NCBI RefSeq assembly: GCF_023716485.1
Contig: NZ_CP092418.1
Span: forward strand, 4,000,501 to 4,064,500
DNA from: Microbulbifer variabilis
GTDB lineage: Bacteria > Pseudomonadota > Gammaproteobacteria > Pseudomonadales > Cellvibrionaceae
Direction: 5' to 3'
DNA length: 64,000 nucleotides
A program made the position numbers and the translations under genes. The notes beneath the pieces were generated by a model. The model was not told the origin of the DNA. It did no database searches and was given only the letters and a program-made list of their open reading frames with translations. Below, in pieces: positions 1 to 12,860 of this stretch. How positions within the stretch are numbered: the first letter of the stretch is position 1; each line of letters opens with the position of its first letter.

Positions 1-128
1 TAGTTCTGGAAATCACTCCGGATAACTCTGAATTTTTAGTACACACTATGTTCGTTGATGACCCAGATATTTTTCGTGAGGAAATTCATCTGGGATTTGA
101 GAAACGCGTGCGGGAGGCGTTTTCCTGA
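1..128 (+). CDS. mnhE: Na+/H+ antiporter subunit E, C-terminal fragment
   Basis: Only the last 41 codons are in the window; the gene begins upstream. The frame reads from base 3 and ends at the TGA at 126-128. The visible residues (VLEITPDN near the start, then FVDDPD) fit the cytoplasmic tail of MrpE/MnhE, a membrane subunit of the multi-subunit Mrp Na+/H+ antiporter. The stop overlaps the mnhF start codon by one base (TGATG), so the genes are translationally coupled. The identification rests on the tail plus the mnhF and mnhG neighbours, since the tail alone is short. Confidence 0.75.
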   Translation, partial: VLEITPDNSEFLVHTMFVDDPDIFREEIHLGFEKRVREAFS

Positions 129-463
129 TGCACAGTACTATCGTTGATATCAACGCGCCGCTAATCGTAGCGGCCATTAATGTCTCATCACTCATTTTAT
201 TACTGGCTCTGGCCATGTGTTTTATGCGAATTTTTCTTGGTCCAACACTGGCAGACCGGGTTGTAGCCCTCGATGTGCTGAATATTCTTGCAGTGGCCTA
301 TTGCGCTCTGTTAGCGATTGCCTCGGGAGAGCCAGCCTATCTGAGTGCGGCCATTGCCCTGGCACTGGTAGCCTTCCTGGTGAGTGTCGCCTTCGCCCGC
401 TTTATCGAGAAAAGCGGAAAAAAGACCGTATTACAAGAGGGAGGTGGCAGTGGTATTCGATGA
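128..463 (+). CDS. mnhF: Na+/H+ antiporter subunit F (MnhF/MrpF)
   Basis: A 111-residue inner-membrane protein with three hydrophobic segments (about residues 12-33, 42-62 and 68-90) and the MrpF signature FLGPTLADRVVALD at about 37-50. MrpF is a small essential subunit of the Mrp antiporter, which exports Na+ in exchange for H+ and supports pH and salt tolerance. The start ATG overlaps the mnhE stop, and the 3' end overlaps mnhG. Length is normal for the family. The C-terminal tail (KKTVLQEGGGSGIR) is polar and probably cytoplasmic. Confidence 0.9.
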   Translation: MHSTIVDINAPLIVAAINVSSLILLLALAMCFMRIFLGPTLADRVVALDVLNILAVAYCALLAIASGEPAYLSAAIALALVAFLVSVAFARFIEKSGKKTVLQEGGGSGIR

Positions 464-794
464 GGTTTTTATTGCTACCCTTTTGCTAGTAGGCAGCCTA
501 TTCGGTTTTAGTGCGGCTTTGGGTTTGTTACGGATGCCGGATTTCTACACTCGCATGAGCACTTCGGGCAAAGCCGCCACCCTGTGCTGCGGATTGTTAC
601 TGGGGGGCGTTGCCGCAATGTTCCACGATACCCAGGTAACCGCACGCGCAGTGGCGGCGCTGCTATTTTTGCTCTTCACTGTGCCCATCGGGGTGCATAT
701 GATTGCGCGAGCAGCCTATCGGGTAGGCACCCCTATGTGGCGAGGCAGGACCGCCAGTCCCCGCTTCAAAAACCCGAAGAGGGACTTAAAGTAG
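450..794 (+). CDS. mnhG: Na+/H+ antiporter subunit G (MnhG/MrpG)
   Basis: Product of about 114 residues with three membrane helices and the MrpG motif GLLRMPDFYTRMS, followed by KAATLC. The frame is open from further upstream, but the start is best placed at GTG 450, which has a good ribosome-binding site (AAGAGGGAGG ending at 443) at correct spacing; another GTG at 444 overlaps that site. The gene overlaps mnhF by 14 bases. It is the last Mrp gene and faces the convergent purK 20 bases away. The basic C-terminus (RFKNPKRDLK) is probably cytoplasmic. Confidence 0.88.
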   Translation: MVFDEVFIATLLLVGSLFGFSAALGLLRMPDFYTRMSTSGKAATLCCGLLLGGVAAMFHDTQVTARAVAALLFLLFTVPIGVHMIARAAYRVGTPMWRGRTASPRFKNPKRDLK

Positions 795-814
795 ATCCTG
801 CCCAGGTGAGTTAG

Positions 815-1924
815 TTACTGCTGATAGAGATCGGCAATCATCGCCTCACAGCGCTGAGCCAGCTCTTCTGAACTGTCATCCACCAGGATCACATGGCCCA
901 TCTTACGCCCGGGACGGAGCGTCTTGCCATAGAGCCAAACTCCCTCATTCTTGCCTGTTGGCGCTCGATCCACACCAAGCATATTGACCATGGCAGCGGG
1001 TCGCGGGCAATCGGTGTCACCCAGTGGCATATCCAATATCGCTCGCAAATGATTGGCAAATTGGCTGGTGCCCGCACCCACTAAAGTCCAGTGACCACTG
1101 TTGTGGACCCGTGGCGCAATTTCATTCACTAGCAAACCTTCACTGGTGACAAAGCACTCCACTGAAAGTACGCCCACATAGTCCCAGTCATCCATCAACT
1201 TTTGCAAATAGGCACGGGCACTGGCCAATAATTGCTCATCCTGATAAGGCGCCTTGGAGAGTAACAGCGTACCTTGGCGATGCAGGTTCTCAGTCAGAGG
1301 GTAAGTCTTTACTTCCCCTGAAGCAGAGCGGGCACCGATCAGGGAAACCTCACAGGAAAAATCTACCGAGGCTTCCACCACGCAGGGCAAATCTTTGGCC
1401 TCTTCTATGGCTTCCTGTAGCTCTGTCGCATCTTTCACCCGCCACTGGTTCTTACCGTCATAGCCATTTTCACAGCTCTTGATAAACGCTGGATAACCGA
1501 GCTTATCCAAGGCATTCAGTAATTCATCACGCCCCTGCGCCGGCATAAAAGACGCAACCGGAAGACCACTCTCAGTAAGAGCCCGCTTCTCCCTTAAACG
1601 GTGTTGGGCTTTCTCAAAAACATGGGGATCTGGGTAAACGGGACAGAAGCGTTGCAACGCTCTCAACAGCGCTACATCCACCTGCTCACGCTCGGCGGTA
1701 ATCACCTCAGGGCAACCAAGTGCCTGAAATAAATCCTCGTCACTGCCCGCCTCATCCAGCCTGACTATTGTGCCGAGACCTTCAACGCAACCCGCGTCCT
1801 CGTCCTTCTCCGCCAGGAAACTAAATGTTATACCGAGGGGCTTACCCTCTTGTGCCATCATCTGCGCCAGCTGCCCGCAGCCGACAATAGCGATATGTCT
1901 GGTTACTTCACTCACTGACTTCAC
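815..1924 (-). CDS. purK: N5-carboxyaminoimidazole ribonucleotide synthase (PurK)
   Basis: A 369-residue ATP-grasp enzyme that uses ATP and bicarbonate to carboxylate aminoimidazole ribonucleotide to N5-CAIR in de novo purine synthesis. Visible signatures are the N-terminal nucleotide-fold loop GCGQLAQMMAQEG (about 16-28), NGYDGKNQW in the ATP-grasp region, and the metal/ATP-binding segment NEIAPRVHNSGHWT near residue 270. Length fits the family (about 355-380). The ATG overlaps the purE stop by four bases. It is the last gene of the leftward group small membrane protein - sbtA-like - purE - purK, so its bicarbonate substrate may be supplied by the transporter encoded upstream. Confidence 0.96.
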   Translation of the reverse strand: MKSVSEVTRHIAIVGCGQLAQMMAQEGKPLGITFSFLAEKDEDAGCVEGLGTIVRLDEAGSDEDLFQALGCPEVITAEREQVDVALLRALQRFCPVYPDPHVFEKAQHRLREKRALTESGLPVASFMPAQGRDELLNALDKLGYPAFIKSCENGYDGKNQWRVKDATELQEAIEEAKDLPCVVEASVDFSCEVSLIGARSASGEVKTYPLTENLHRQGTLLLSKAPYQDEQLLASARAYLQKLMDDWDYVGVLSVECFVTSEGLLVNEIAPRVHNSGHWTLVGAGTSQFANHLRAILDMPLGDTDCPRPAAMVNMLGVDRAPTGKNEGVWLYGKTLRPGRKMGHVILVDDSSEELAQRCEAMIADLYQQ

Positions 1925-2412
1925 TCCACCGTTAGCGGAACCTGGTCAGTTTGACGCTCGCGCCAAGCGATCAGTCGCTCCTGTAGTTCAGCATCGCCCA
2001 GGGAGAGCATCTGTGCCGCCATCAGGCCCGCGTTATAAGCCCCAGAGGCACCTACCGCCTGGGTAGCCACGGCGATACCTTTGGGCATCTGCACGATGGA
2101 AAGAAGGCTATCCATTCCGGTCATAAAACGGCTTTCAACAGGCACAGCAATCACTGGCAGCGGGCTCATAGCGGCAATCATTCCCGGCAGGTGGGCAGAG
2201 CCACCAGCTCCGGCGATAATCACCTGGGTGCCGTTTTTGTGGGCTTCACTGGCGAACTCCACCAGACGCTGGGGGGTTCTGTGAGCGGACACAACCGCAG
2301 TGGCAAAAGGAACCTCCAGCTCGTTCAAGGGTTTGGTGGCATTGGCCATGGTGGGCCAATCCGATCGCGACCCCATAACGATGGTGACTTTTTCAAAGGG
2401 CAGTGATTTCAC
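1921..2412 (-). CDS. purE: N5-CAIR mutase (PurE, class I)
   Basis: A 163-residue cytoplasmic enzyme that converts N5-CAIR, the PurK product, to CAIR. Class I PurE motifs are all present: MGSRSDWPTM (about 13-22, phosphate and active-site Ser/Asp), SAHRTPQRL (43-51, catalytic His) and AGAGGSAHLPGMIAA (67-81). It starts only 6 bases after the stop of the bicarbonate-transporter-like gene and overlaps purK by 4 bases, indicating one transcript. Length matches bacterial class I PurE. Coexistence with PurK supports the two-step bacterial route. Confidence 0.97.
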   Translation of the reverse strand: MKSLPFEKVTIVMGSRSDWPTMANATKPLNELEVPFATAVVSAHRTPQRLVEFASEAHKNGTQVIIAGAGGSAHLPGMIAAMSPLPVIAVPVESRFMTGMDSLLSIVQMPKGIAVATQAVGASGAYNAGLMAAQMLSLGDAELQERLIAWRERQTDQVPLTVE

Positions 2413-2418
2413 TTGCGG

Positions 2419-3348
2419 CTAACTCCAATGTTGAACAAACGCCAGGTAGACGGGAATCGCCACCAGGACATTGAAAGGGAACGTAATCGCCAGGGACAGT
2501 GTGATGGACACGCTGGCATTGGCCTGCGGCAGAGCCACAGACATAGCTGCGGGTACCGCGATATAGGAGGCGCTGCTACCGAGTACTGCCAGCAGGAAAA
2601 TTCCTCCCGCCGACAACCCCAGTAATGCTCCCAGGGCACCCCCGGCCGCACCGCCTAGCAGGGGCATAAATATACCAAAACTCAGCAAGAACGCACCCTG
2701 CCCACGCACATCTGCCAGTCGCGCCGCCGCGACTCTGCCCATTTCCAGCAGAAAAAGAGCCAATACACCGTGAAATAACTGACCAAAGAAAGGCATTACT
2801 GTTGCAGTACGCTCACCGGCCCAGGCGCCGATGGCGATCCCGCCAAGCAGGAGAAGAACCCCCTGATTGCAAGTCAGTTCATGAGCCAGGCGCCCCTTGT
2901 TGCTGTTCTGCATCGATTTCCGTGCTAGAAGAATTCCCACCACGATAGCCGGAACTTCTAGCAGGGCAACGAATAAGGGGAAATAGGCTTCGTAATCGAT
3001 ACCCTTCGCCTCCAACAGGGCCACCGCCACGGCATAGGTTGCCACACTGACCGACCCGTAGTGGGCTGCAGTAGCCGCTGCATCCAGCCGACTCCATTTG
3101 CCTATCCAATAGAGAAGCGGGAAGGCCAACAAAGGAAGCAGTGCACCAAAGGCCAAAATTGCGAGAGATTGAGGAATCAGGGTGGAAGCGGAATAAGTAC
3201 TGAGGGCCGCCCCACCCTTGAGCCCTATAGCCAGCAGCAGAAAGATCACACAGCTTTGGTAGAGACCGGTGGGCAGGCGTAAATCACTACGTACCAGCTG
3301 CGCCAGAGCCCCAAGGATGAAGAAACCAACTACAACATCCAGCTGCAT
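2419..3348 (-). CDS. SbtA-family sodium-dependent bicarbonate transporter
   Basis: A 309-residue polytopic inner-membrane protein with about ten hydrophobic helices. It resembles the SbtA family (formerly DUF897), known in cyanobacteria as high-affinity Na+/HCO3- symporters. Family-like segments include LLLAIGLKGG near residue 38, AHYGSVSVATYAVA near 95 and the C-terminal GSSASYIAVPAAM region. No sbtB (PII-like) partner lies next to it. It is followed after 6 bases by purE and then purK, whose reaction consumes bicarbonate; a divergent LysR gene of the CbbR/CmpR type lies upstream. Bicarbonate as substrate is inferred from family and context. Confidence 0.85.
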   Translation of the reverse strand: MQLDVVVGFFILGALAQLVRSDLRLPTGLYQSCVIFLLLAIGLKGGAALSTYSASTLIPQSLAILAFGALLPLLAFPLLYWIGKWSRLDAAATAAHYGSVSVATYAVAVALLEAKGIDYEAYFPLFVALLEVPAIVVGILLARKSMQNSNKGRLAHELTCNQGVLLLLGGIAIGAWAGERTATVMPFFGQLFHGVLALFLLEMGRVAAARLADVRGQGAFLLSFGIFMPLLGGAAGGALGALLGLSAGGIFLLAVLGSSASYIAVPAAMSVALPQANASVSITLSLAITFPFNVLVAIPVYLAFVQHWS

Positions 3349-3350
3349 GA

Positions 3351-3572
3351 TCAGTGCTTCCCGCGCTTGGAGCGATCGCGGCGTTCAGATAGGGGGAGTC
3401 GAATTTTCTGAGGAGCGCGCTTCATTAGCACGTAACCCACATTGGCAAGCACCACCACCAGCCCCACCACCATTAGTGCGGCGGCATCAATACCAACCAG
3501 CGCCAATATCCATCCAATGGACATAACTAACAGTCCTACCAAGGTACCAAAGTAAAGTTGTGACTTGTGCAT
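3351..3572 (-). CDS. small two-helix membrane protein, first gene of the sbtA-purEK group
   Basis: A 73-residue protein of unknown function. The start is set at the ATG giving MHKSQLYFG because a strong ribosome-binding site (GGGAGGGGG) lies just upstream; the frame is open about 30 codons further. Two hydrophobic segments (about 7-26 and 30-50) are followed by a strongly basic tail (KRAPQKIRLP, then RRDRSKRGKH), so the C-terminus should be cytoplasmic. Its stop lies 2 bases before the transporter start codon, so the two are tightly coupled. A role as accessory or regulatory subunit of the transporter is possible but unproven. Confidence 0.7.
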   Translation of the reverse strand: MHKSQLYFGTLVGLLVMSIGWILALVGIDAAALMVVGLVVVLANVGYVLMKRAPQKIRLPLSERRDRSKRGKH

Positions 3573-3625
3573 GCAGAGGCCCCCTCCCATAGATTGAAGT
3601 GGGCGCATTATCCCTAGGTAGACCA

Positions 3626-3673
3626 ATAGATAAAAATAGATAATGATTATGCTAACTATCATCTTTTATCTAT
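3626..3673. promoter_or_regulatory. inverted repeat in the LysR / sbtA intergenic region
   Basis: A perfect 10-base inverted repeat, ATAGATAAAA (3626-3635) and TTTTATCTAT (3664-3673), flanks AT-rich DNA that holds further TAGATAAT/ACTATCAT partial symmetry. It lies in the 115-base gap between the divergent small-membrane-protein/sbtA group and the lysR gene, ending 14 bases before the lysR start. This position and T-rich/A-rich symmetry are typical of LysR-type operators controlling both divergent promoters. The assignment to this regulator is an inference. Confidence 0.55.
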
Positions 3674-3687
3674 GAATAAGAAAAATC

Positions 3688-4641
3688 ATGTTATCCAGCA
3701 GAGCTCACTCCCGCATCGGCACTGTCAGGCAGTTGGAGGTTTTACTTACAGTATATGAACACCGCAGTATCAGTGGCGCCGCAAAAGCGCTGCACCTGAC
3801 TCAGCCCAGTGTATCCATGCAGTTGGCCAAGTTGTCTGGTGCCGTAGGCTTGCCCCTCTACTACGCCGTAGGCAAGCAATTGCAATTCACTGAAGCCGGA
3901 CAGACTCTGGTGGACAGTGCCCGAGAAATCCTCAAGAGCTATGAATATCTGGAATTAAAGCTAGCCAGACTGCGCGGTCTAGAAACAGGGCGTTTACAAC
4001 TGGCAGTCGTCACTACCGCCAAATATTTTATTCCCCACCTGATTGGCGAATTTTACGAGCAGCATCCAAAGTTGGATATTCTCTTTCGCGTGGGTAATCG
4101 TCAGCAGATCATCGACTACACCAGTGAGGATGAGGATGATTTTTATGTGTTCAGCCATCCTCCCAAAAACCCTGATCTGGAATTGGTGGAATTCCTGCCC
4201 AATCGACTGTTGGCCATAGCACCGGAGAAGCACCCGTTAGCAGGTAGAAAAAAGATTCCCCTTGAAGAGTTTGCCAGCGGTCCCTTCCTGCGGCGAGAGG
4301 AGGGCTCTGGAACCCGTCACGCCATTGAGCGTTTCCTACAGGAGAGACATATCGACCTCAATATTCGCATGACCATCGAAAGTAATGAAGCGATAAAGCA
4401 CGCTGTAATGTCAGGGCTCGGGGTATCTATTCTCTCCGAACATACTCTCGCATTTGGCGGCCATTCCGGCCTGTCAATTTTAGAAGTGGAATCACTGCCA
4501 ATTATTACCCACTGGTATCTGGCCAGGCGAAAGTCCCGTCCATTATCTCCTGCCGCCGCAGAATTCCTTGAGTATGCCCGCAACCTTGAGACGGTACCGG
4601 TAGAAAGCGGTATCGCTTGGCCTCTATCTCCCAATCAATAA
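3688..4641 (+). CDS. LysR-family transcriptional regulator (CbbR/CmpR-like)
   Basis: A 317-residue regulator. The N-terminal winged helix-turn-helix (about residues 14-73, core SISGAAKALHLTQPSVSMQLAKL) is followed by a periplasmic-binding-protein-like effector domain (about 100-300) with FLRREEGSGTR and AVMSGLGVSILSEHTL, segments shared with CbbR/CmpR regulators of carbon fixation and bicarbonate uptake. It is divergent from the sbtA-purEK group, which is the likely target. The effector is unknown; in CbbR/CmpR relatives it is a metabolite of carbon or nucleotide metabolism. The first ATG is used; the leader contains the inverted repeat described separately. Confidence 0.88.
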   Translation: MLSSRAHSRIGTVRQLEVLLTVYEHRSISGAAKALHLTQPSVSMQLAKLSGAVGLPLYYAVGKQLQFTEAGQTLVDSAREILKSYEYLELKLARLRGLETGRLQLAVVTTAKYFIPHLIGEFYEQHPKLDILFRVGNRQQIIDYTSEDEDDFYVFSHPPKNPDLELVEFLPNRLLAIAPEKHPLAGRKKIPLEEFASGPFLRREEGSGTRHAIERFLQERHIDLNIRMTIESNEAIKHAVMSGLGVSILSEHTLAFGGHSGLSILEVESLPIITHWYLARRKSRPLSPAAAEFLEYARNLETVPVESGIAWPLSPNQ

Positions 4642-4894
4642 TCCATAATGTAAAAGCACAGAAAAAATTCAATATTTGAATTGGCTAACTCCGCACACAG
4701 GTTAAACTTCTTGGGTGATAGCCAATCTTCTCCCAAAAAATCCCGATTTAATACTCGTCAAATTTCCTCTGCACCTGCCGAATCCTGCTACTTTTGGGAT
4801 ACCTATTGGTGAGTCCAAAATCACCAGTTATCTAATGCAACGAGAAACAATAAATGACGCCGGCCGTCATCGATTTTCACAGAAAGGTATAACG

Positions 4895-5659
4895 ATGAAA
4901 ATCCAGGGAATAATTTTCAGACTCTTTATATTACTTTTAGCCACAAGCACAATCAGTGTTAAAGCTCAGGAAGATTGGCGCAACATTGACTGGGGTGAAT
5001 TTATAGTTCGCTTCGGGCTCAGCTATGTTGCTCCCAATGATGCCGGAACTTCACTGAAATACCGGGTATTACAACAATGGGACTTATATAATTCGACCTG
5101 GGAAATAGACACAGCACAAACTTGGCAAATTTCCGGAGTATGGCGCCCTTCAGACCGATTGGGGTTCGAGCTGATGCACATTAACAGTGCTGCCTATGAT
5201 GTGACTCTCGACAATTTTACTGGCAACCCAGGCAGCAGCCAAATTCAACTGGGGGATTTTAAGGTATCGACCACTCTCGCCTTTGCTAACTGGTATTTTC
5301 TCGATCCATCCTATTTTTTTCGACCCTATCTAGGCGCCGGTATTAACTATACCGATTACCATACGGTTTCTATCAGCCGCCAATTTGATGAATATTTGAT
5401 GGACTCAGGTATGTCAGTGGCGCCAGGGGCTCTTAATATGGGACATTCCTGGGATTGGGCTCTTCAAGGGGGAATCGACTTCAACCTAGATTTCCGTCAA
5501 TTTCGTTATCCTCTGTTAATTAATCTGGCGGCTCTTTACTACTTATCAGATACCGACCCCACAGTTAACTTCCCCACAGAGTTAGGTTCAGACCGCCTCT
5601 ACGCACACTTCGATTACAACCCATGGATCATCAATGTTGGCATTGGCACCAAGTTCTGA
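4895..5659 (+). CDS. OmpW-family outer membrane protein
   Basis: A 254-residue outer-membrane beta-barrel. The start is placed at ATG 4895, preceded by AGAAAGG at good spacing and followed by a signal peptide (about 1-25, ending SVKAQ); the open frame extends 60 codons further upstream without such support. Family features are an N-terminal RFGLSYVAPND strand, FELMHINSAAYD, LANWYFLDP-like text (FANWYFLDPSYFFRPYLGAGINYT) and a final strand ending in KF with a terminal aromatic residue. OmpW proteins form small hydrophobic-channel barrels. It is followed 17 bases later by the autotransporter gene, perhaps cotranscribed. Confidence 0.85.
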   Translation: MKIQGIIFRLFILLLATSTISVKAQEDWRNIDWGEFIVRFGLSYVAPNDAGTSLKYRVLQQWDLYNSTWEIDTAQTWQISGVWRPSDRLGFELMHINSAAYDVTLDNFTGNPGSSQIQLGDFKVSTTLAFANWYFLDPSYFFRPYLGAGINYTDYHTVSISRQFDEYLMDSGMSVAPGALNMGHSWDWALQGGIDFNLDFRQFRYPLLINLAALYYLSDTDPTVNFPTELGSDRLYAHFDYNPWIINVGIGTKF

Positions 5660-5676: not shown

Positions 5677-8058
5677 ATGAAACTTAGTGCAGATACCCCA
5701 ATGGAAAACTATAAATCAAACTTTTTCGTCCGCCAGTGGATTAATGCTTTACTTTTTTCTCCCGCATTGACACTAGCGATTATTTTCCCCTTGGAAGCCA
5801 TTGCGCAGTGTACTCCGAGTAATACGGGTACTAGTGGCGCAGATCAAATAATCTGTGACGAAGATAATGATGCAGAAGAGGCCGATGTCGATGCACTAGG
5901 CGGCAATGACACCTTGGATTTAAATGGCGGCACTATCAATAGTGTCTTCGGTGGCGATGGCGACGATGCCATTCATGTGAAAGGGGCAATAGTTAAAGAT
6001 TCTGTCTTTGGCGGAAATGGAAACGATCTAATCGTACTGGATAATCGCAGTAGCGACATTGGTAACTACCTCAGTGGCGGGGGTATTTATGGCGGAGCGG
6101 GTGACGATAATATCCAAATTTTAGACGGACTCACCTTTCATGTTTGGGGTGGTGAAGGTAACGACCAAATCACTCTGGATGGAGGTTTCATTTTTAATTA
6201 CCTGGATGCCGGCGGGGGAGATGATTACATCCACTGGGATGAGGGAATAAGCAATGAGATACGCGGTGGCTCTGGGTCAGATACCTTAGTCATTGACTCC
6301 TATTCTTTCGAGGGTGATGCAATTTTAAATGGTGGTGATGATCTCAGTGCAGAAGATGGGGATATCGACACACTGATTTTCAAGCTAGACTATCGTGTGG
6401 ATGGCAACAAACTAACCAACTGGGAACGTGTTGTTGTTTGGGGTAGTTCAAAAATTATTTTAACGGGCAGTTTAAATGTTGGCGGCGGCCAAGACGCTGA
6501 AAACAATCCATTAGGGTTACACATCAAATGGGGCGGCCAAACTTTTATAGATGCCAAAGAGTATAGAATTACCGGCAACGTTGCTAACGACGGCACTATC
6601 GATCTTGCGAATAAAGAATTCAACACTCTAATCATTCAAAAAGATAGTGATAATAATTATGGACACTATAGCGGCGAAAACGGACGCCTGTGGTTAGATG
6701 TAGCACTCAATGACAGTTCTGCCGGCAGTGACCAGTTAATCATCAGAGGGGATACCAGCGGATCAACTTATGTAACCGTTTATAATCGCAACGGCACTGG
6801 CGCACGCACCCAAGACGATGGAATAAAACTAATTTCTATCGAGGGTGACTCTACTGAACATGCTTTTATTTTAAACGGCGACTACACTACCAAGGATGAG
6901 CAACCAGCAACTATTGGTGGAGCATACGCCTATACCCTGCACCACAGTGACGAAACTGGAAATGAGGATGGTAGTTGGTATCTACGTTCTACGATAAGTA
7001 ATTCAAGTCGCCTTCCCAAAGGCGGTATGATTCGCTGGCAGCCCGCTGCGGTAATGTATGAAACCCTTCCGCAAGTGCTGCGCTCTTTAAATATCCCCTC
7101 CACATTGCGGAGTCGTGTAGGCAATCGTTATTGGGTTGGTAGCAGTTATCGGGACGTCTATAATACCGATTACACCAGTTCATTGGAAACCGCTATTGAT
7201 CGCAAGGGACTATGGCTACGTAATGGCGCACGCTATATAACTACAACTCCCAAAGAGTCCACCACCTGGGCAAGTTGGGATCAAACTTATTATCAATTTC
7301 AGTTTGGTATCGACTTTCCTCTCAACCTATTAATTCTTGACACCACACCTATTGTTAGTTTGGCTTTGCACTATGGCGATTCAAGAAATACAGTAGAATC
7401 TTTTTTTGGTGATGGCAATATAGATGCCAAAACATATGGCGTCAGTAGCTATTTAACCTGGTATGGCTACCAAGGCCTGTACCTGGATACTCAGTTTAAG
7501 CTAAGTTGGTTTGACTTTGACTTCGACGCAGAAGACCTGCGTGCTCTCCGCAATAGCAGTGAGGGCTATGGTTATGGCTTTTCTGTAGAAGGAGGGTGGA
7601 GCTTCAAGCTCTATGATTATTATTCTATTACCCCCCATGCACAACTTATTTATACTTCTGAGGAAGCGGAGGATTTCGAAGATACCTACGCCGTAAAAGT
7701 AGGAGATATTAATAATAATGGGTTTTTATTGCGCCTAGGCACCACTTTTGAAAAGCGCAAAAGCCAGCGTAAATCAAGTAGAAATATGTACGGCTCCCTA
7801 CCTCTAGAGCGCTTTGGTTATTATGTAACTCCTGGAGTCACTCTGAATCTCAACCAGGAAACTGACTTGGTCGTTTCTGGAGCCCGCCTCTACCAAAAAC
7901 CAGACTTTTGGTATGCAGACTTAAGAATGGGGGCTAGTTATGAGGAATGTGGGGACCACTGTTCCATCTATACCGAATTATTTTTCAGCAGCGGCCTGGA
8001 GAGTATTGGGGACAGTTTTGTAGGAGGGCTAGAGCTTGGGTTTCGTTATAAATGGTAG
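5677..8058 (+). CDS. autotransporter with RTX-like repeat passenger
   Basis: A 793-residue exported protein. A long signal peptide (about 1-43, ending AIAQ) precedes a passenger with repeated Gly/Asp-rich nonapeptide-like units (GGDGDDAI, GGNGNDLI, GGAGDDNI, GGEGNDQI, GGSGSDTL) at about residues 72-215, resembling the Ca2+-binding beta-roll of RTX proteins. A middle beta-rich region (about 220-440) leads to RLPKGGMIRWQPAAV and a C-terminal autotransporter barrel (about 490-793) ending in YKW, as outer-membrane barrels do. RTX repeats usually mark type I secretion substrates, so the combination is unusual. ATG 5701 is an alternative start. Function is probably surface adhesion or matrix; this is inferred. 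Confidence 0.82.
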   Translation: MKLSADTPMENYKSNFFVRQWINALLFSPALTLAIIFPLEAIAQCTPSNTGTSGADQIICDEDNDAEEADVDALGGNDTLDLNGGTINSVFGGDGDDAIHVKGAIVKDSVFGGNGNDLIVLDNRSSDIGNYLSGGGIYGGAGDDNIQILDGLTFHVWGGEGNDQITLDGGFIFNYLDAGGGDDYIHWDEGISNEIRGGSGSDTLVIDSYSFEGDAILNGGDDLSAEDGDIDTLIFKLDYRVDGNKLTNWERVVVWGSSKIILTGSLNVGGGQDAENNPLGLHIKWGGQTFIDAKEYRITGNVANDGTIDLANKEFNTLIIQKDSDNNYGHYSGENGRLWLDVALNDSSAGSDQLIIRGDTSGSTYVTVYNRNGTGARTQDDGIKLISIEGDSTEHAFILNGDYTTKDEQPATIGGAYAYTLHHSDETGNEDGSWYLRSTISNSSRLPKGGMIRWQPAAVMYETLPQVLRSLNIPSTLRSRVGNRYWVGSSYRDVYNTDYTSSLETAIDRKGLWLRNGARYITTTPKESTTWASWDQTYYQFQFGIDFPLNLLILDTTPIVSLALHYGDSRNTVESFFGDGNIDAKTYGVSSYLTWYGYQGLYLDTQFKLSWFDFDFDAEDLRALRNSSEGYGYGFSVEGGWSFKLYDYYSITPHAQLIYTSEEAEDFEDTYAVKVGDINNNGFLLRLGTTFEKRKSQRKSSRNMYGSLPLERFGYYVTPGVTLNLNQETDLVVSGARLYQKPDFWYADLRMGASYEECGDHCSIYTELFFSSGLESIGDSFVGGLELGFRYKW

Positions 8059-8096: not shown

Positions 8097-8993
8097 CTAT
8101 TTCAGCAAATCATAGATGTCATATTCAGAGAAGACCTTCTTAATTTTGCAATCATTCCCCTGACGGTTCTTATGATTTTCCTTCATTAATGCATATTCTT
8201 GTGAGCCCTGAATCATTAAGAAGCGATGTCTCCAGCTACGGGTATCAGAAATACGCGCAGCCAAAGTCCCGCTTTTAATACTCATTGCCTTCAACCAAAT
8301 ATCATCTGCATTTGGGCACAGGGTCATAAATTTTTCGGGGTCAAACGCATCCTTATGCAAGGAGTTTGGAGGATACATAACTCCTCCCATGCCAGTTGGA
8401 AAGACTAAATGAGATGCCTCTGTGTCCCTTATGCTACTTTCCCAACTTCCATAAGGCAGTAGTGCTCCTTTTTTATCTAGACGCATTCGATGAGCCCTGT
8501 GGCAATAAATCTTGGATGGATCTTTTTCATATGCCTGATAAAGTAAATCAATCATATCCGGCGGATAAAGAACATCATCGTCAACAGTAACAATCAGGCT
8601 GTCAGGAAATCTTTCAAAAGCATAAGCATATTTTTTATAGGGTCCCAGATCTTCCTCAACAAAAAATATTTGCAGCCCTCTTTGCTGTTGCTTTTTAAGG
8701 GTCTCGGGCAAAGTCTTATTTGGAAAGTTCTTGGTAGACAACCAAAGAACAATTGCATCAGCCTTAAGGGATTGCTGGAAGAGGCTTTCAATACACAAAT
8801 ATAAATCGTGGATTCGCTTATCGAAGGACGTTAGAGATATAACAATATTATGTCTCTTAGCATTTCCCACTCCCGGATCTGTGTTGCTTGAAGCGTGTAG
8901 ACCAAGCAACTGGCAGCGAACAAGTGCTTCCAACTTCAAATTATTGTTTAGGTCGTGCTTTTTTAAGCGCTTCTTTAAAAAATATTGGAACAT
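8097..8993 (-). CDS. glycosyltransferase-like protein, copy 1
   Basis: A 298-residue protein with GT-A-like features: VISLTSFDKRI (51-61) for the nucleotide-sugar strand and TVDDDVLYPP (136-145), an Asp-rich motif that would hold a divalent metal and the sugar nucleotide. No membrane helix or signal peptide; the N-terminus is basic (KKRLKKH). I cannot name the donor or acceptor; polysaccharide or protein glycosylation is plausible. The neighbouring gene at 9262-10188 is about 72% identical over the first 150 residues without gaps, so these are tandem duplicates. It converges with the autotransporter gene, 38 bases away. Confidence 0.75.
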   Translation of the reverse strand: MFQYFLKKRLKKHDLNNNLKLEALVRCQLLGLHASSNTDPGVGNAKRHNIVISLTSFDKRIHDLYLCIESLFQQSLKADAIVLWLSTKNFPNKTLPETLKKQQQRGLQIFFVEEDLGPYKKYAYAFERFPDSLIVTVDDDVLYPPDMIDLLYQAYEKDPSKIYCHRAHRMRLDKKGALLPYGSWESSIRDTEASHLVFPTGMGGVMYPPNSLHKDAFDPEKFMTLCPNADDIWLKAMSIKSGTLAARISDTRSWRHRFLMIQGSQEYALMKENHKNRQGNDCKIKKVFSEYDIYDLLK

Positions 8994-9261: not shown

Positions 9262-10188
9262 CTAGTGAGGACTTAAAACAGGCTGATTTCGCTCCTGTAA
9301 ATAGTCAAGTAATTGATACTCTGAAAACACCCTTTTAATCTTGCAGTCATTACCACCTGTGCCTCTCAAGTTGATCTCCTTTAACTGTTGAATCTGTGAT
9401 CCCTGAATAGTAAGAAAGCGTTCCCTCCAGTATCGATAGTCTGGAACCCTAGTAACATATTTTCCTCGCAATAAACTCATCGCCTTCAACCAAACATCAT
9501 CAGCAGCAGGACATAACTCCATAAATTTTTTACTATTGAAAGCATCCTCATGTAATGAATCCGGAGGGTACAAAACCCCAGCCATTCCCGTAGCAAAAAG
9601 GAAAGGAGATGGCTCACTATTTAGCCCATAAGAGCGCCAACTTTCGTAAGGTTTCAATTCCCCTTTTCCGTTTAACAGAATCTTATGTGCCCTATGACAA
9701 TGGATATGTGAGGGAGCTCTCAAATAAGATTGATATAGTAAATCGATAGTATCTGAAGGATAAAGCACATCATCATCCACAGTGACAATGAGACTATTTG
9801 GAAACATATCAAAGGCATACATATATTTCATATAAGGCCCAAAATCATTCTCCACGAAATGAATTTGTAGGCCTCTAGCCTGCTGTTTTCGAAGTATCTC
9901 AGGTAATCTCCTATCGGGGAAATCACGTAAGGATAACCATAGAACTATTGCATCTGCTCTCAAGGATTGTTGATAAAGACTTTCTATACATAAGTAAACA
10001 TCATAAATACGCTTATTATAAGAAGTCAGCGAAACGACTATATTATGCGGCTTATCATTGCCAACGCCGGATGACTCACAATTCAGAGCCTTCAAGCCGA
10101 GAAGATGACCTAAAACCAGAGACTCCACCTTTAAATTATTATTAGAGTCATGTTTTTTTAATCTTTTTTTAAGAAAGTACTGGAGCAT
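9262..10188 (-). CDS. glycosyltransferase-like protein, copy 2
   Basis: A 308-residue paralogue of the downstream gene: both open with QYFLKKRLKKHD, and the metal-binding DDD falls at residues 138-140 in each. The C-terminal part keeps AADDVWLKAM (NADDIWLKAM in copy 1) and NDCKIKRVFSEY. It is about 10 residues longer, with the extra tail RNQPVLSPH. The two copies are separated by 268 bases with no gene. Divergence is strongest at residues 31-40 and in the middle (about 175-195), which may change acceptor choice. The exact glycosyltransferase family is uncertain. Confidence 0.75.
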   Translation of the reverse strand: MLQYFLKKRLKKHDSNNNLKVESLVLGHLLGLKALNCESSGVGNDKPHNIVVSLTSYNKRIYDVYLCIESLYQQSLRADAIVLWLSLRDFPDRRLPEILRKQQARGLQIHFVENDFGPYMKYMYAFDMFPNSLIVTVDDDVLYPSDTIDLLYQSYLRAPSHIHCHRAHKILLNGKGELKPYESWRSYGLNSEPSPFLFATGMAGVLYPPDSLHEDAFNSKKFMELCPAADDVWLKAMSLLRGKYVTRVPDYRYWRERFLTIQGSQIQQLKEINLRGTGGNDCKIKRVFSEYQLLDYLQERNQPVLSPH

Positions 10189-11254: not shown

Positions 11255-11944
11255 ATGAATAAAAACGTTAGTTTCCTTGATAAATGCCCACTGCTAGCTG
11301 GCCTACCCGGTGAGGGTCGAGAATTCTTAGCCCAACAGGCACAATGCCAGTACTTTTCTCAGGGTGATAGCATCTACCCTTCGGGCTCCCATCAGGAGCG
11401 CCTTTCAATTATCGCTGAAGGACAAGTAAGAATATGCTCCAGTAATTTTGCCGGGCGCGAAGCGACCCTTGCGATTTTAGATAGTGGAGCTTGGTTTGGT
11501 GATACCGTATTTTGCCCTGGCACTCCGCGAGTATTTGGAGCAAGCGCTCACACTGACTGTGCTGTAGTCGATATTCCGGGTGAAATCTTGAGGGCAAAAA
11601 TGAAACAACACCCCGAAGCCTACCCAATAGTATTGGAACAAATTAGCCTCAGGCTTTGGACAGTAATGTCCATTATCCAGGACGATGTACTACGTGGTAC
11701 CGAAGCGCGAATTGCTCGACGTCTGCTTTTTATGGCCCAAATGCACAACGGCGGCGAAAAAAGTGGCCCAACCAGTTTCCGCCTCACCAAAGAACTACTC
11801 GCCAACACCATGGGGATGACCCGGCAGGGAGTACACCGGGTATTAAAGAATATTGAATCCAAGGGACTAATAGAGTGCTCTTACGGTCGCATCAGTGTGC
11901 CGGATATCTCGCACTTGGATACCTATATAAAGCTGTTGGACTGA
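11255..11944 (+). CDS. Crp/Fnr-family transcriptional regulator
   Basis: A 229-residue regulator with an N-terminal cyclic-nucleotide-binding-type beta-roll (about 10-125; GDSIYPSG, ILDSGAWFGDTVF), a dimerisation helix (about 125-150) and a C-terminal winged helix-turn-helix with LANTMGMTRQGVHRVLKNIESKG (about 182-204). The nucleotide-pocket consensus (PFGExALL...RSA) is not kept and there is no N-terminal Cys cluster, so neither cAMP nor an Fe-S cluster is likely. A palindromic site lies just upstream. Its target is probably the divergent aldolase gene. It converges with the symporter gene 7 bases away. Confidence 0.87.
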   Translation: MNKNVSFLDKCPLLAGLPGEGREFLAQQAQCQYFSQGDSIYPSGSHQERLSIIAEGQVRICSSNFAGREATLAILDSGAWFGDTVFCPGTPRVFGASAHTDCAVVDIPGEILRAKMKQHPEAYPIVLEQISLRLWTVMSIIQDDVLRGTEARIARRLLFMAQMHNGGEKSGPTSFRLTKELLANTMGMTRQGVHRVLKNIESKGLIECSYGRISVPDISHLDTYIKLLD

Positions 11945-11951
11945 GAGTATT

Positions 11952-12860
11952 TCATCCGACCTCGTCAGCTTGCGCCGTGTCTGCCTCCCCAGCTTCGCGC
12001 GCTTTCTTGCGGCCATAATAGGCAAGCAACATCCCCGATGGAAACATAAGTACTCCATATACGGCTGAAGGCACCGACATTTCACTGGAGTGCATCAGTG
12101 TGAGGGTCACCATGAGACCAATAGTCCCGTTCTTGATGCCCAGCTCGGTAGCTACTGCCAGACCATCCCGCCGGGAAAGCCCACTGAAGTGGCTGATGAT
12201 TAAGCCAGTCAACACCCCCAGTAAATTCAGCAAAATTGTAGAGGGGCCGGCCAACAGCATGAGCTCTCCAATCCGGTCTCTCATACCCCACACCAATCCC
12301 ACCACTAAAATGACCAGTACCAGCGCCCCAAAAATACTTACAATGCCCTCAGCGCGGCTGGCCAAATGAGGGTTCCAAGCCCGTATCAACATGCCAATCA
12401 CCACGGGCAGCAAGACTATCACCGATAACATGGCGACAGTTTTGGCAAAAGGGAGAACGATTTCCTGCTCTGCTCCAAAGTATTGGCGCAGGGCAAAATT
12501 GGTGAAGAATGGCAGGGTCAGAATCGTAATTAGACTTGCCGAAACCGTTAACACTATGGAGAGCGCTACATTACCGCGAGCGAGTAACGTAAAAAGGTTT
12601 GAGGTCGTTCCACCCGGGCAGGCTGCAATAATCACCAAACCCACAGCTATCGGTGCGGGTAAACTGAGCGCCCAACACAGAACAAAAGCCACAAGTGGCA
12701 TAAGTACAATCTGGGCAAGTGTGCCCACCACTAACCCACCTGGTTTTACCGTCACCTGATGGAAATCCCTGGCGGTCAGGGTCATTCCAATGCCCACCAT
12801 AATGATAAACAGTGCGATGGGTAGACCGATCGAGATCATAGGCCCTGATTCCACATTCAC
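11952..12860 (-). CDS. bile acid:sodium symporter (BASS/SBF) family transporter
   Basis: A 302-residue inner-membrane protein with nine or ten hydrophobic helices, of the BASS family that moves organic anions with Na+. Family markers are VGIGMTLTARDF near residue 24, the crossover segment AACPGGTTSNLFTLLARGN (about 86-104) and GIKNGTIGLMVTLT in the second repeat. The charged C-terminus (YYGRKKAREAGEADTAQ) should be cytoplasmic. The assigned ATG sits very close to its GAGGAGGT ribosome-binding site, so the in-frame ATG at 12839 is an alternative. The substrate is unknown; bile acid itself is unlikely in a marine bacterium. Confidence 0.87.
   Translation of the reverse strand: MNVESGPMISIGLPIALFIIMVGIGMTLTARDFHQVTVKPGGLVVGTLAQIVLMPLVAFVLCWALSLPAPIAVGLVIIAACPGGTTSNLFTLLARGNVALSIVLTVSASLITILTLPFFTNFALRQYFGAEQEIVLPFAKTVAMLSVIVLLPVVIGMLIRAWNPHLASRAEGIVSIFGALVLVILVVGLVWGMRDRIGELMLLAGPSTILLNLLGVLTGLIISHFSGLSRRDGLAVATELGIKNGTIGLMVTLTLMHSSEMSVPSAVYGVLMFPSGMLLAYYGRKKAREAGEADTAQADEVG

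Follow-up and report, generated by a model that had tools for sequence, protein, structure and literature searches.

Why would a heterotrophic bacterium place the gene for an SbtA-type bicarbonate transporter directly ahead of purE and purK, two genes of purine synthesis? The question is raised by an operon in the 64,000-nucleotide (nt) stretch of Microbulbifer variabilis DNA analysed here (the window), whose genome is assigned to Microbulbifer by its close named relatives. An earlier note, made from the sequence alone, took the arrangement for a dedicated supply of carbon to the carboxylation step of purine synthesis. We consider it probable that the operon is a low-CO2 module, controlled by a LysR-type regulator, which feeds bicarbonate (HCO3−) to PurK and forms an alternative to a PurK-independent type of PurE.

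The operon lies on the minus strand, where the order of transcription is a 73-amino-acid (aa) open reading frame (ORF; 3351..3572), sbtA (2419..3348), purE (1921..2412) and purK (815..1924), with gaps of 2, 6 and −4 nt. The coordinates thus confirm the 6 bases between the transporter stop and purE and the 4-base overlap of purE and purK that the earlier note described, and its identification of the three larger genes is borne out by family matches in Pfam and NCBIfam. The purK product, an N5-carboxyaminoimidazole ribonucleotide (N5-CAIR) synthetase that uses HCO3− and ATP, carries the ATP-grasp and PurK_C domains (PF02222 and PF17769) and scores 346.1 bits against TIGR01161 (cut-off 318.4). 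The purE product, an N5-CAIR mutase of the SAHRTP/GGSAHLPG motif type, scores 202.3 bits against AIRC and 195.8 bits against the NCBIfam purE model (cut-off 149.6), so that both proteins of the PurK–PurE N5-CAIR pathway exceed their NCBIfam cut-offs. Gene spacing suggests that all four reading frames are carried on a single mRNA, and a GGAG that overlaps the last part of sbtA, upstream of the GTG start codon of purE, would fit coupled translation. A consensus scan of window positions 1-4700 found no promoter-like site on the minus strand and two terminator-like sites on that strand, both within sbtA; the scan totals were no higher than those of shuffled sequences and lend no support to an internal promoter or terminator before purE.

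The genome holds one gene of the Sbt_1 family, one beta-carbonic anhydrase, one PurE, which is that of the operon, and one PurK match (at E ≤ 1e-30), likewise the operon's own. A search of it for the RuBisCO large subunit gave no match, in agreement with the heterotrophic host that the earlier note assumed.

Assignment of the transporter rests on family and fold. The window SbtA scores 336.6 bits against Sbt_1 (PF05982; cut-off 27), matches Synechocystis SbtA (PDB 7cye) with an E value of 1.3e-22, and is 26-27% identical to cyanobacterial SbtA. An AlphaFold model built from 19 homologues (mean predicted local distance difference test score 81.6) has helix breaks at residues 98-101 and 258-263, which is the SbtA fold with its two interrupted helices. 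Its five best matches in the PDB are all SbtA structures (template modelling (TM) scores of 0.84-0.90 on the query, with 0.90 for structure 8zor), followed by bile-acid symporters. In the cyanobacterial protein Slr1512, HCO3− is contacted by the side chains of S114, Y140, S324 and S327 (PMC8352866). Sequence alignment with 7cye places S101 and S261 of the window SbtA at S114 and S324. We infer from family and fold that the window protein imports HCO3− together with Na+. Two proteins called SbtA-type, Sbt and Sbt-CS, are carried by Thiomicrospira pelophila, an autotrophic gammaproteobacterium. Both are reported to rescue an E. coli that has no carbonic anhydrase and to increase its internal pool of dissolved inorganic carbon (DIC), and the T. 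pelophila sbtA transcript rises 280-fold under DIC limitation (PMC12628692). Elsewhere in the window (11255-12860), a gene for a Crp-type regulator lies tail to tail with a minus-strand gene of the SBF family of sodium/bile acid symporters, the group that supplied the next fold matches after SbtA.

The linkage of the transporter to purine genes proved widespread, beyond what chance would bring about, and not unique to this genome. We took as named relatives the 80 best of 483 stretches that encode a relative and were fetched with the window SbtA family as query; in 44 of these, purE and/or purK lies directly downstream of sbtA. The linked loci fall in 13 named genera (Microbulbifer, Oceanospirillum, Marinobacterium, Neptuniibacter, Paraferrimonas, Halioglobus, Ferrimonas, Shewanella, Motiliproteus, Kangiella, Marinobacter, Pleionea and Porticoccus), with further linked records named to family only or not placed; all 11 Pseudoalteromonas and 4 Vibrio loci are among the unlinked. 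In the 43 loci with purE, the median distance between it and sbtA is 6 nt, and the gap stays within 60 nt in 42 of them. In draws spread evenly over larger groups, many of whose loci extend only 1.5 kb to each side, a hand tally found the linkage in 27 of 78 Sbt_1-positive genomes of the window's own order (245 searched; the 78 include at least 4 that are broken or lie on truncated contigs), and it occurred in 3 of 43 at the level of class, the genome of the window included (276 searched). At the level of phylum (348 searched, 55 positive) it was found in none of the 24 loci newly fetched, which are a part of the new matches. Two loci deserve separate mention. In a member of the Kangiellaceae (5001-7084 of L068), purK follows sbtA directly and no purE match lies between them. 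Microbulbifer sp. NKW57 (5001-7530 of L083) carries a second, more distant SbtA–purE–purK lineage, with an SbtA 61% identical to that of the window; the nearest kin of this SbtA, in genomes G007 and G032, are unlinked.

The genes have also been joined in more than one way. After fragments shorter than 270 aa and identical proteins were dropped, 193 distinct Sbt_1 proteins were placed in a FastTree phylogeny, and 68 of these are linked. The order SbtA, purE, purK accounts for 56 of them, plus two partial cases; in five SbtB stands between SbtA and purE–purK, in three the order is purK, purE, SbtA, SbtB, and in two purE/purK lies upstream of SbtA–SbtB. These four orders occupy separated branches and require a minimum of 19 gains or losses on the FastTree phylogeny and 17 on a quick IQ-TREE phylogeny of 91 hand-picked rows, counts to be read in the light of many weak inner forks and of a main clade within which gains and losses are not told apart. 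Another carboxylating enzyme shows a similar association: in four loci sbtA follows pycA–pycB, at 3 nt and without sbtB in one (L106), and at about 60, 90 and 450 nt and with sbtB in the others (L343, L344 and L345). The several gene orders, together with pycAB, indicate that sbtA became joined to genes for HCO3−-consuming carboxylation enzymes on repeated occasions, and make HCO3− supply to carboxylation the best reading of the association. A gene for a CbbQ/NorQ-type ATPase (PF08406) beside sbtA in two genomes (L118) bears an ambiguous family name and was not used as evidence.

We compared the PurE types of 58 genomes including that of the window, 37 of them Microbulbifer. Eight of the 11 SbtA-linked Microbulbifer genomes carry a second PurE, with no PurK match within the ~1.4-1.6 kb fetched on each side of it; in all eight, the only PurK above cut-off is that of the module. 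In PurE phylogenies (FastTree, 97 and 127 rows), these second copies belong to a clade of 29 rows (support 100) in which GMAAHLAG replaces the motif GGxAHLPG. The clade comprises the eight second copies and 11 more from other families, the single PurE found in each of five Microbulbifer without PurK and in G040, and the four drifting copies discussed below. PurE type and presence of PurK in the locus split completely but for two loci: L327, which has both types, and a linked locus whose fetched stretch shows no PurK. The same correlation holds for whole genomes. Eleven of the 58 have a PurE and are PurK-less, nine of them without any PurK match and two (G040 and G056) with sub-cut-off matches that we take to be PurT-like; all 11, among which G006 (80%) and G057 (89%) are incomplete, carry the GMAAHLAG type only. 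G038, which is 75% complete and yielded no PurE and a partial PurK, was excluded from this count. As PurK-less genomes have no other type, the GMAAHLAG-type PurE, judged from this genome pattern, most likely works without PurK. Class II PurE, the CO2-using AIR (aminoimidazole ribonucleotide) carboxylase, has a SAHK-type loop; SAHRTP is found in all 19 second copies, and a classical class II identity by loop was rejected for them. A PurE without PurK is known and has been tied to CO2 availability (PMC3261824). The second PurE probably uses CO2, or N5-CAIR formed spontaneously. Outside Microbulbifer, two purE genes are present in 11 of 18 linked genomes without SbtB versus none of 11 SbtB-type genomes, in one of which (G380) purEK lies 3 kb from sbtA.

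Upstream of the operon, a LysR-type regulator is encoded divergently on the plus strand (3688..4641). Its best NCBIfam model is CbbR (NF045990), but the score of 227.5 bits falls below the cut-off of 450, and the protein was filed as LysR-type and not as CbbR. A divergent LysR gene is present in 72 of the 80 named loci, and in 32 of the 36 that are unlinked. In the gap between this gene and the operon lies a conserved box on the minus strand (3626..3642; TATCTATTTTTATCTAT), a candidate LysR site. With its 16-base core (TATCTATTTTTATCTA) as query, matches with two or fewer mismatches were found in 75 of 85 LysR–sbtA gaps of the window's clade, the window and close relatives included, where dinucleotide shuffles predict 0.06, and in none of 19 such gaps of other clades. 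The operon copy is the sole one in its own genome at one mismatch or fewer. At that threshold 20 of the 58 genomes have a match, including all 11 SbtA-linked Microbulbifer, and several of the matches outside those 11 sit away from sbtA; a backward control matches about equally often at the genome-wide sites because the box is nearly mirror-symmetric. We infer that the LysR protein binds the box and that the module is induced by low CO2.

The first ORF of the operon encodes a hydrophobic microprotein with two hydrophobic segments, and its coordinates fit the end, at position 3572, of the region treated in the earlier note, which mentioned neither it nor the LysR gene, the box or a second PurE. 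By position and hydrophobicity, taking the most hydrophobic ORF where several fitted and with no shuffle control, a small ORF precedes sbtA in 75 of the 80 named loci, and 69 of the 80 have two hydrophobic segments. Its sequence is weakly conserved. It has no Pfam or NCBIfam match, and a homology search returned six proteins including itself, of which the four with a source name are all from Microbulbifer. Its ratio of nonsynonymous to synonymous substitution rates (dN/dS) is 0.10-0.25 in the four of six comparisons with dS defined, versus 0.03-0.05 for sbtA. No SbtB match was found at the window locus, and the three named loci of 80 that have SbtB are without a LysR match. The microprotein is a likely partner of SbtA, which would stand in place of the PII-like SbtB of other clades.

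Taken together, these features suggest the following scheme. SbtA would bring HCO3− into the cell with Na+, its two-helix microprotein acting as the partner that replaces PII-like SbtB. PurK would spend ATP to attach this HCO3− to AIR, giving N5-CAIR, which PurE would rearrange to carboxyaminoimidazole ribonucleotide (CAIR), a step of purine synthesis. When CO2 is low, as in alkaline, sea-like water, the module would keep purine synthesis running; relatives with a second PurE would use CO2 or spontaneous N5-CAIR when CO2 is plentiful. In keeping with the first part of this scheme, PurK uses HCO3−, and cyanobacterial purK mutants require high CO2 (PMC10880623). No second PurE was found in the genome of the window, where the module is therefore the only route found.

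Several observations weigh against this reading. The strongest objection comes from carbonic anhydrase: the beta type is present in all 37 Microbulbifer, that of the window included, and in 57 of the 58 genomes, and HCO3− and CO2 should therefore interconvert inside the cell, so that imported HCO3− could leave as CO2 and HCO3− could arise from CO2. The same counts rule out SbtA as a substitute for a missing carbonic anhydrase. With no PurE or PurK outside it in its own genome, the module must stay on to some degree even at high CO2. In the transporter, two of the four HCO3−-contacting side chains differ, Y140 and S327 of Slr1512 being V127 and A264; the SbtA of an SbtB-bearing locus (L186) reads the same SASYIA segment, and this difference is thus not special to the window protein. 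The transporter also occurs without the purine genes, and they without it. No purE or purK lies downstream of sbtA in 36 of the 80 named relatives. No Sbt_1 gene is present in 24 of the 37 Microbulbifer, two more have one away from purE, and in 21 of the 37 purEK of the same type is present with no SbtA linked to it; in the stretches fetched around those 21 purEK loci there is no match to SbtA, the microprotein or such a LysR. In one genome (G037) a C-terminal sbtA remnant (82 aa matched; about 4900-5145 of L110, G037:C1:73000-83000) lies just before purE–purK, where the transporter appears from sequence to have decayed while purEK stayed. The absence of sbtA from many genomes with purEK implies that SbtA is dispensable in some settings.

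The contrast between linked and unlinked Microbulbifer is suggestive only. Among the 21 with purEK and no linked SbtA, 17 are without a GMAAHLAG-type PurE and four have a drifting copy, compared with the eight of 11 linked genomes that have a second PurE, a contrast that rests essentially on one Microbulbifer clade. The drifting copies lie at dN 0.11-0.17 from one reference, versus 0.009-0.065 for the other 12, and SAHRTP is altered in three of the four, but their dN/dS (0.12-0.22) overlaps that of the others (0.04-0.13). Such SAHRTP changes in a PurE of the PurK-less type occur at L324, L326 and L327 (G011, G034 and G027), in genomes that have purEK and no SbtA. Finally, the loci counted for the box and the neighbours are not independent observations, close relatives being among them.

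These points bear most on the rival explanation that fares best, namely general import of inorganic carbon, in which SbtA would raise cytoplasmic HCO3− for all carboxylases and purEK would merely share its promoter, with no privileged supply to PurK. We give this explanation somewhat less than an even chance. It draws strength from the 36 relatives whose sbtA has no purine genes downstream, and from pycAB as a neighbour elsewhere. The box, too, is retained in 35 of 36 unlinked as well as 40 of 49 linked gaps of the window's clade, and sbtA with the box and without purEK is common in relatives outside Microbulbifer. Because the box is kept in both kinds of gap, the more constant part of the arrangement would seem to be LysR, the box, the microprotein ORF and sbtA, and the variable part purEK. 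Against this stand the joining of purE/purK to sbtA in several gene orders and the identity of the commonest same-strand neighbours of sbtA, which are PurK (78 of 249 loci) and PurE (65), then SbtB (56), in a set with duplicates in which the window's clade is over-represented. General import and the feeding of PurK share the transport step and differ on whether purines alone would relieve a mutant; the module may serve all carboxylases, with purEK as a co-regulated user. Supply to purine carboxylation, as the earlier note proposed, is strengthened by the recurrence, the several orders and pycAB, but the word 'dedicated' is unproven, given the unlinked relatives and the carbonic anhydrase in every Microbulbifer.

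It is improbable that the substrate is instead a different small carboxylate, formate for example, which might be carried out of the cell. A point mutation in SO_3758 of S. oneidensis gives formate tolerance, and the authors lean to efflux (PMC12093963). By the residues and numbering given there, SO_3758 looks like a member of the window SbtA subfamily. The two altered HCO3−-contact residues also speak for this reading. The recurrent enzyme neighbours, however, are PurE/PurK and pyruvate carboxylase, SbtB accompanies the transporter in other clades, and the T. pelophila members of the family raise internal DIC (PMC12628692). Least probable of all is a purely historical linkage, a gene block moved horizontally or inherited with no functional coupling, for although 56 of 59 linked PurE proteins without SbtB fall in one lineage (a clade of 74 rows, support 87) and SbtA is absent from many genomes that keep this purEK, the four gene orders involve PurE of different lineages and the sbtA–purE spacing is consistently tight.

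Of the adjoining genes, mrpF and mrpG (128-794) lie on the strand opposite to the operon and converge on purK. The earlier note had made the Mrp antiporter the keeper of the Na+ gradient for SbtA. This partnership finds no support: the genes are outside the operon, and Mrp genes occur in six of the 80 named loci, five in Microbulbifer (of nine from that genus) and one in Neptuniibacter, on the other side of the module. Mrp therefore looks like an incidental neighbour. Beyond the LysR gene, an OmpW gene (4715-5659) adjoins a 793-aa ORF (5677-8058) with GGxGDD-like repeats by eye, perhaps a surface protein with calcium-binding repeats, and two adjoining minus-strand ORFs of about 300 aa each (8097-8993 and 9262-10188) look by eye like tandem paralogues.

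The components of the module are known. Cyanobacterial SbtA–SbtB (Slr1512; PDB 7cye and 7egl) shares with the window SbtA the Sbt_1 family, the fold, the broken helices at the Na+/HCO3− site and the equivalents of S114 and S324. The window system differs from it in low sequence identity, in two HCO3− side chains, in having no adjoining sbtB, in its LysR regulator and microprotein, and in having purEK as partner in a genome that lacks RuBisCO. Sbt and Sbt-CS of T. pelophila, likened here by description and not by sequence, also supply DIC, one of them being induced by DIC limitation, but serve a CO2-concentrating mechanism with RuBisCO and carboxysome, and the passages on them do not name purEK (PMC12628692). 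S. aureus, a non-autotroph, needs MpsAB for growth at atmospheric CO2, and MpsAB is exchangeable with carbonic anhydrase; the genes, mpsAB, are different ones (PMC6689103). The human bicarbonate transporter SLC4A7 is increased in support of the de novo synthesis of purines and pyrimidines, and differs in being an animal protein under mTORC1 control, described with no link to SbtA or purEK (PMC10912719, citing Ali et al. 2022). As in our proposal, CO2 availability has been held to decide whether PurE needs PurK, as a choice of route between organisms (PMC3261824); here both PurE types often occur in one genome, and the PurK route is joined to an HCO3− importer. The coupling of SbtA to purEK was not found in print, in a literature search that excluded most subscription journals; two papers in which SbtA appears with purE and purK do not report it. 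A search there on SbtA with small proteins brought up one cyanobacterial review that names SbtA (PMC7760959).

More tentatively still, marine heterotrophs may possess two carbon inputs at one purine step, a PurK-independent PurE fed by CO2 and an SbtA–microprotein–PurE–PurK route that is switched by LysR, imports HCO3− and pays in ATP, with the microprotein as a new partner that regulates SbtA or helps to assemble it, in place of SbtB. The papers drawn on here deal with SbtA-type transporters mainly as components of carbon-fixation machinery. In the present case one is tied, repeatedly and in different orders, to the purine step that uses HCO3−, and the genome lacks RuBisCO, so that inorganic-carbon limitation of a heterotroph can be tested at a single step. 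Relatives with a second PurE offer a natural comparison of PurK-free and PurK routes within one genome, and the box and the microprotein provide handles on regulation.

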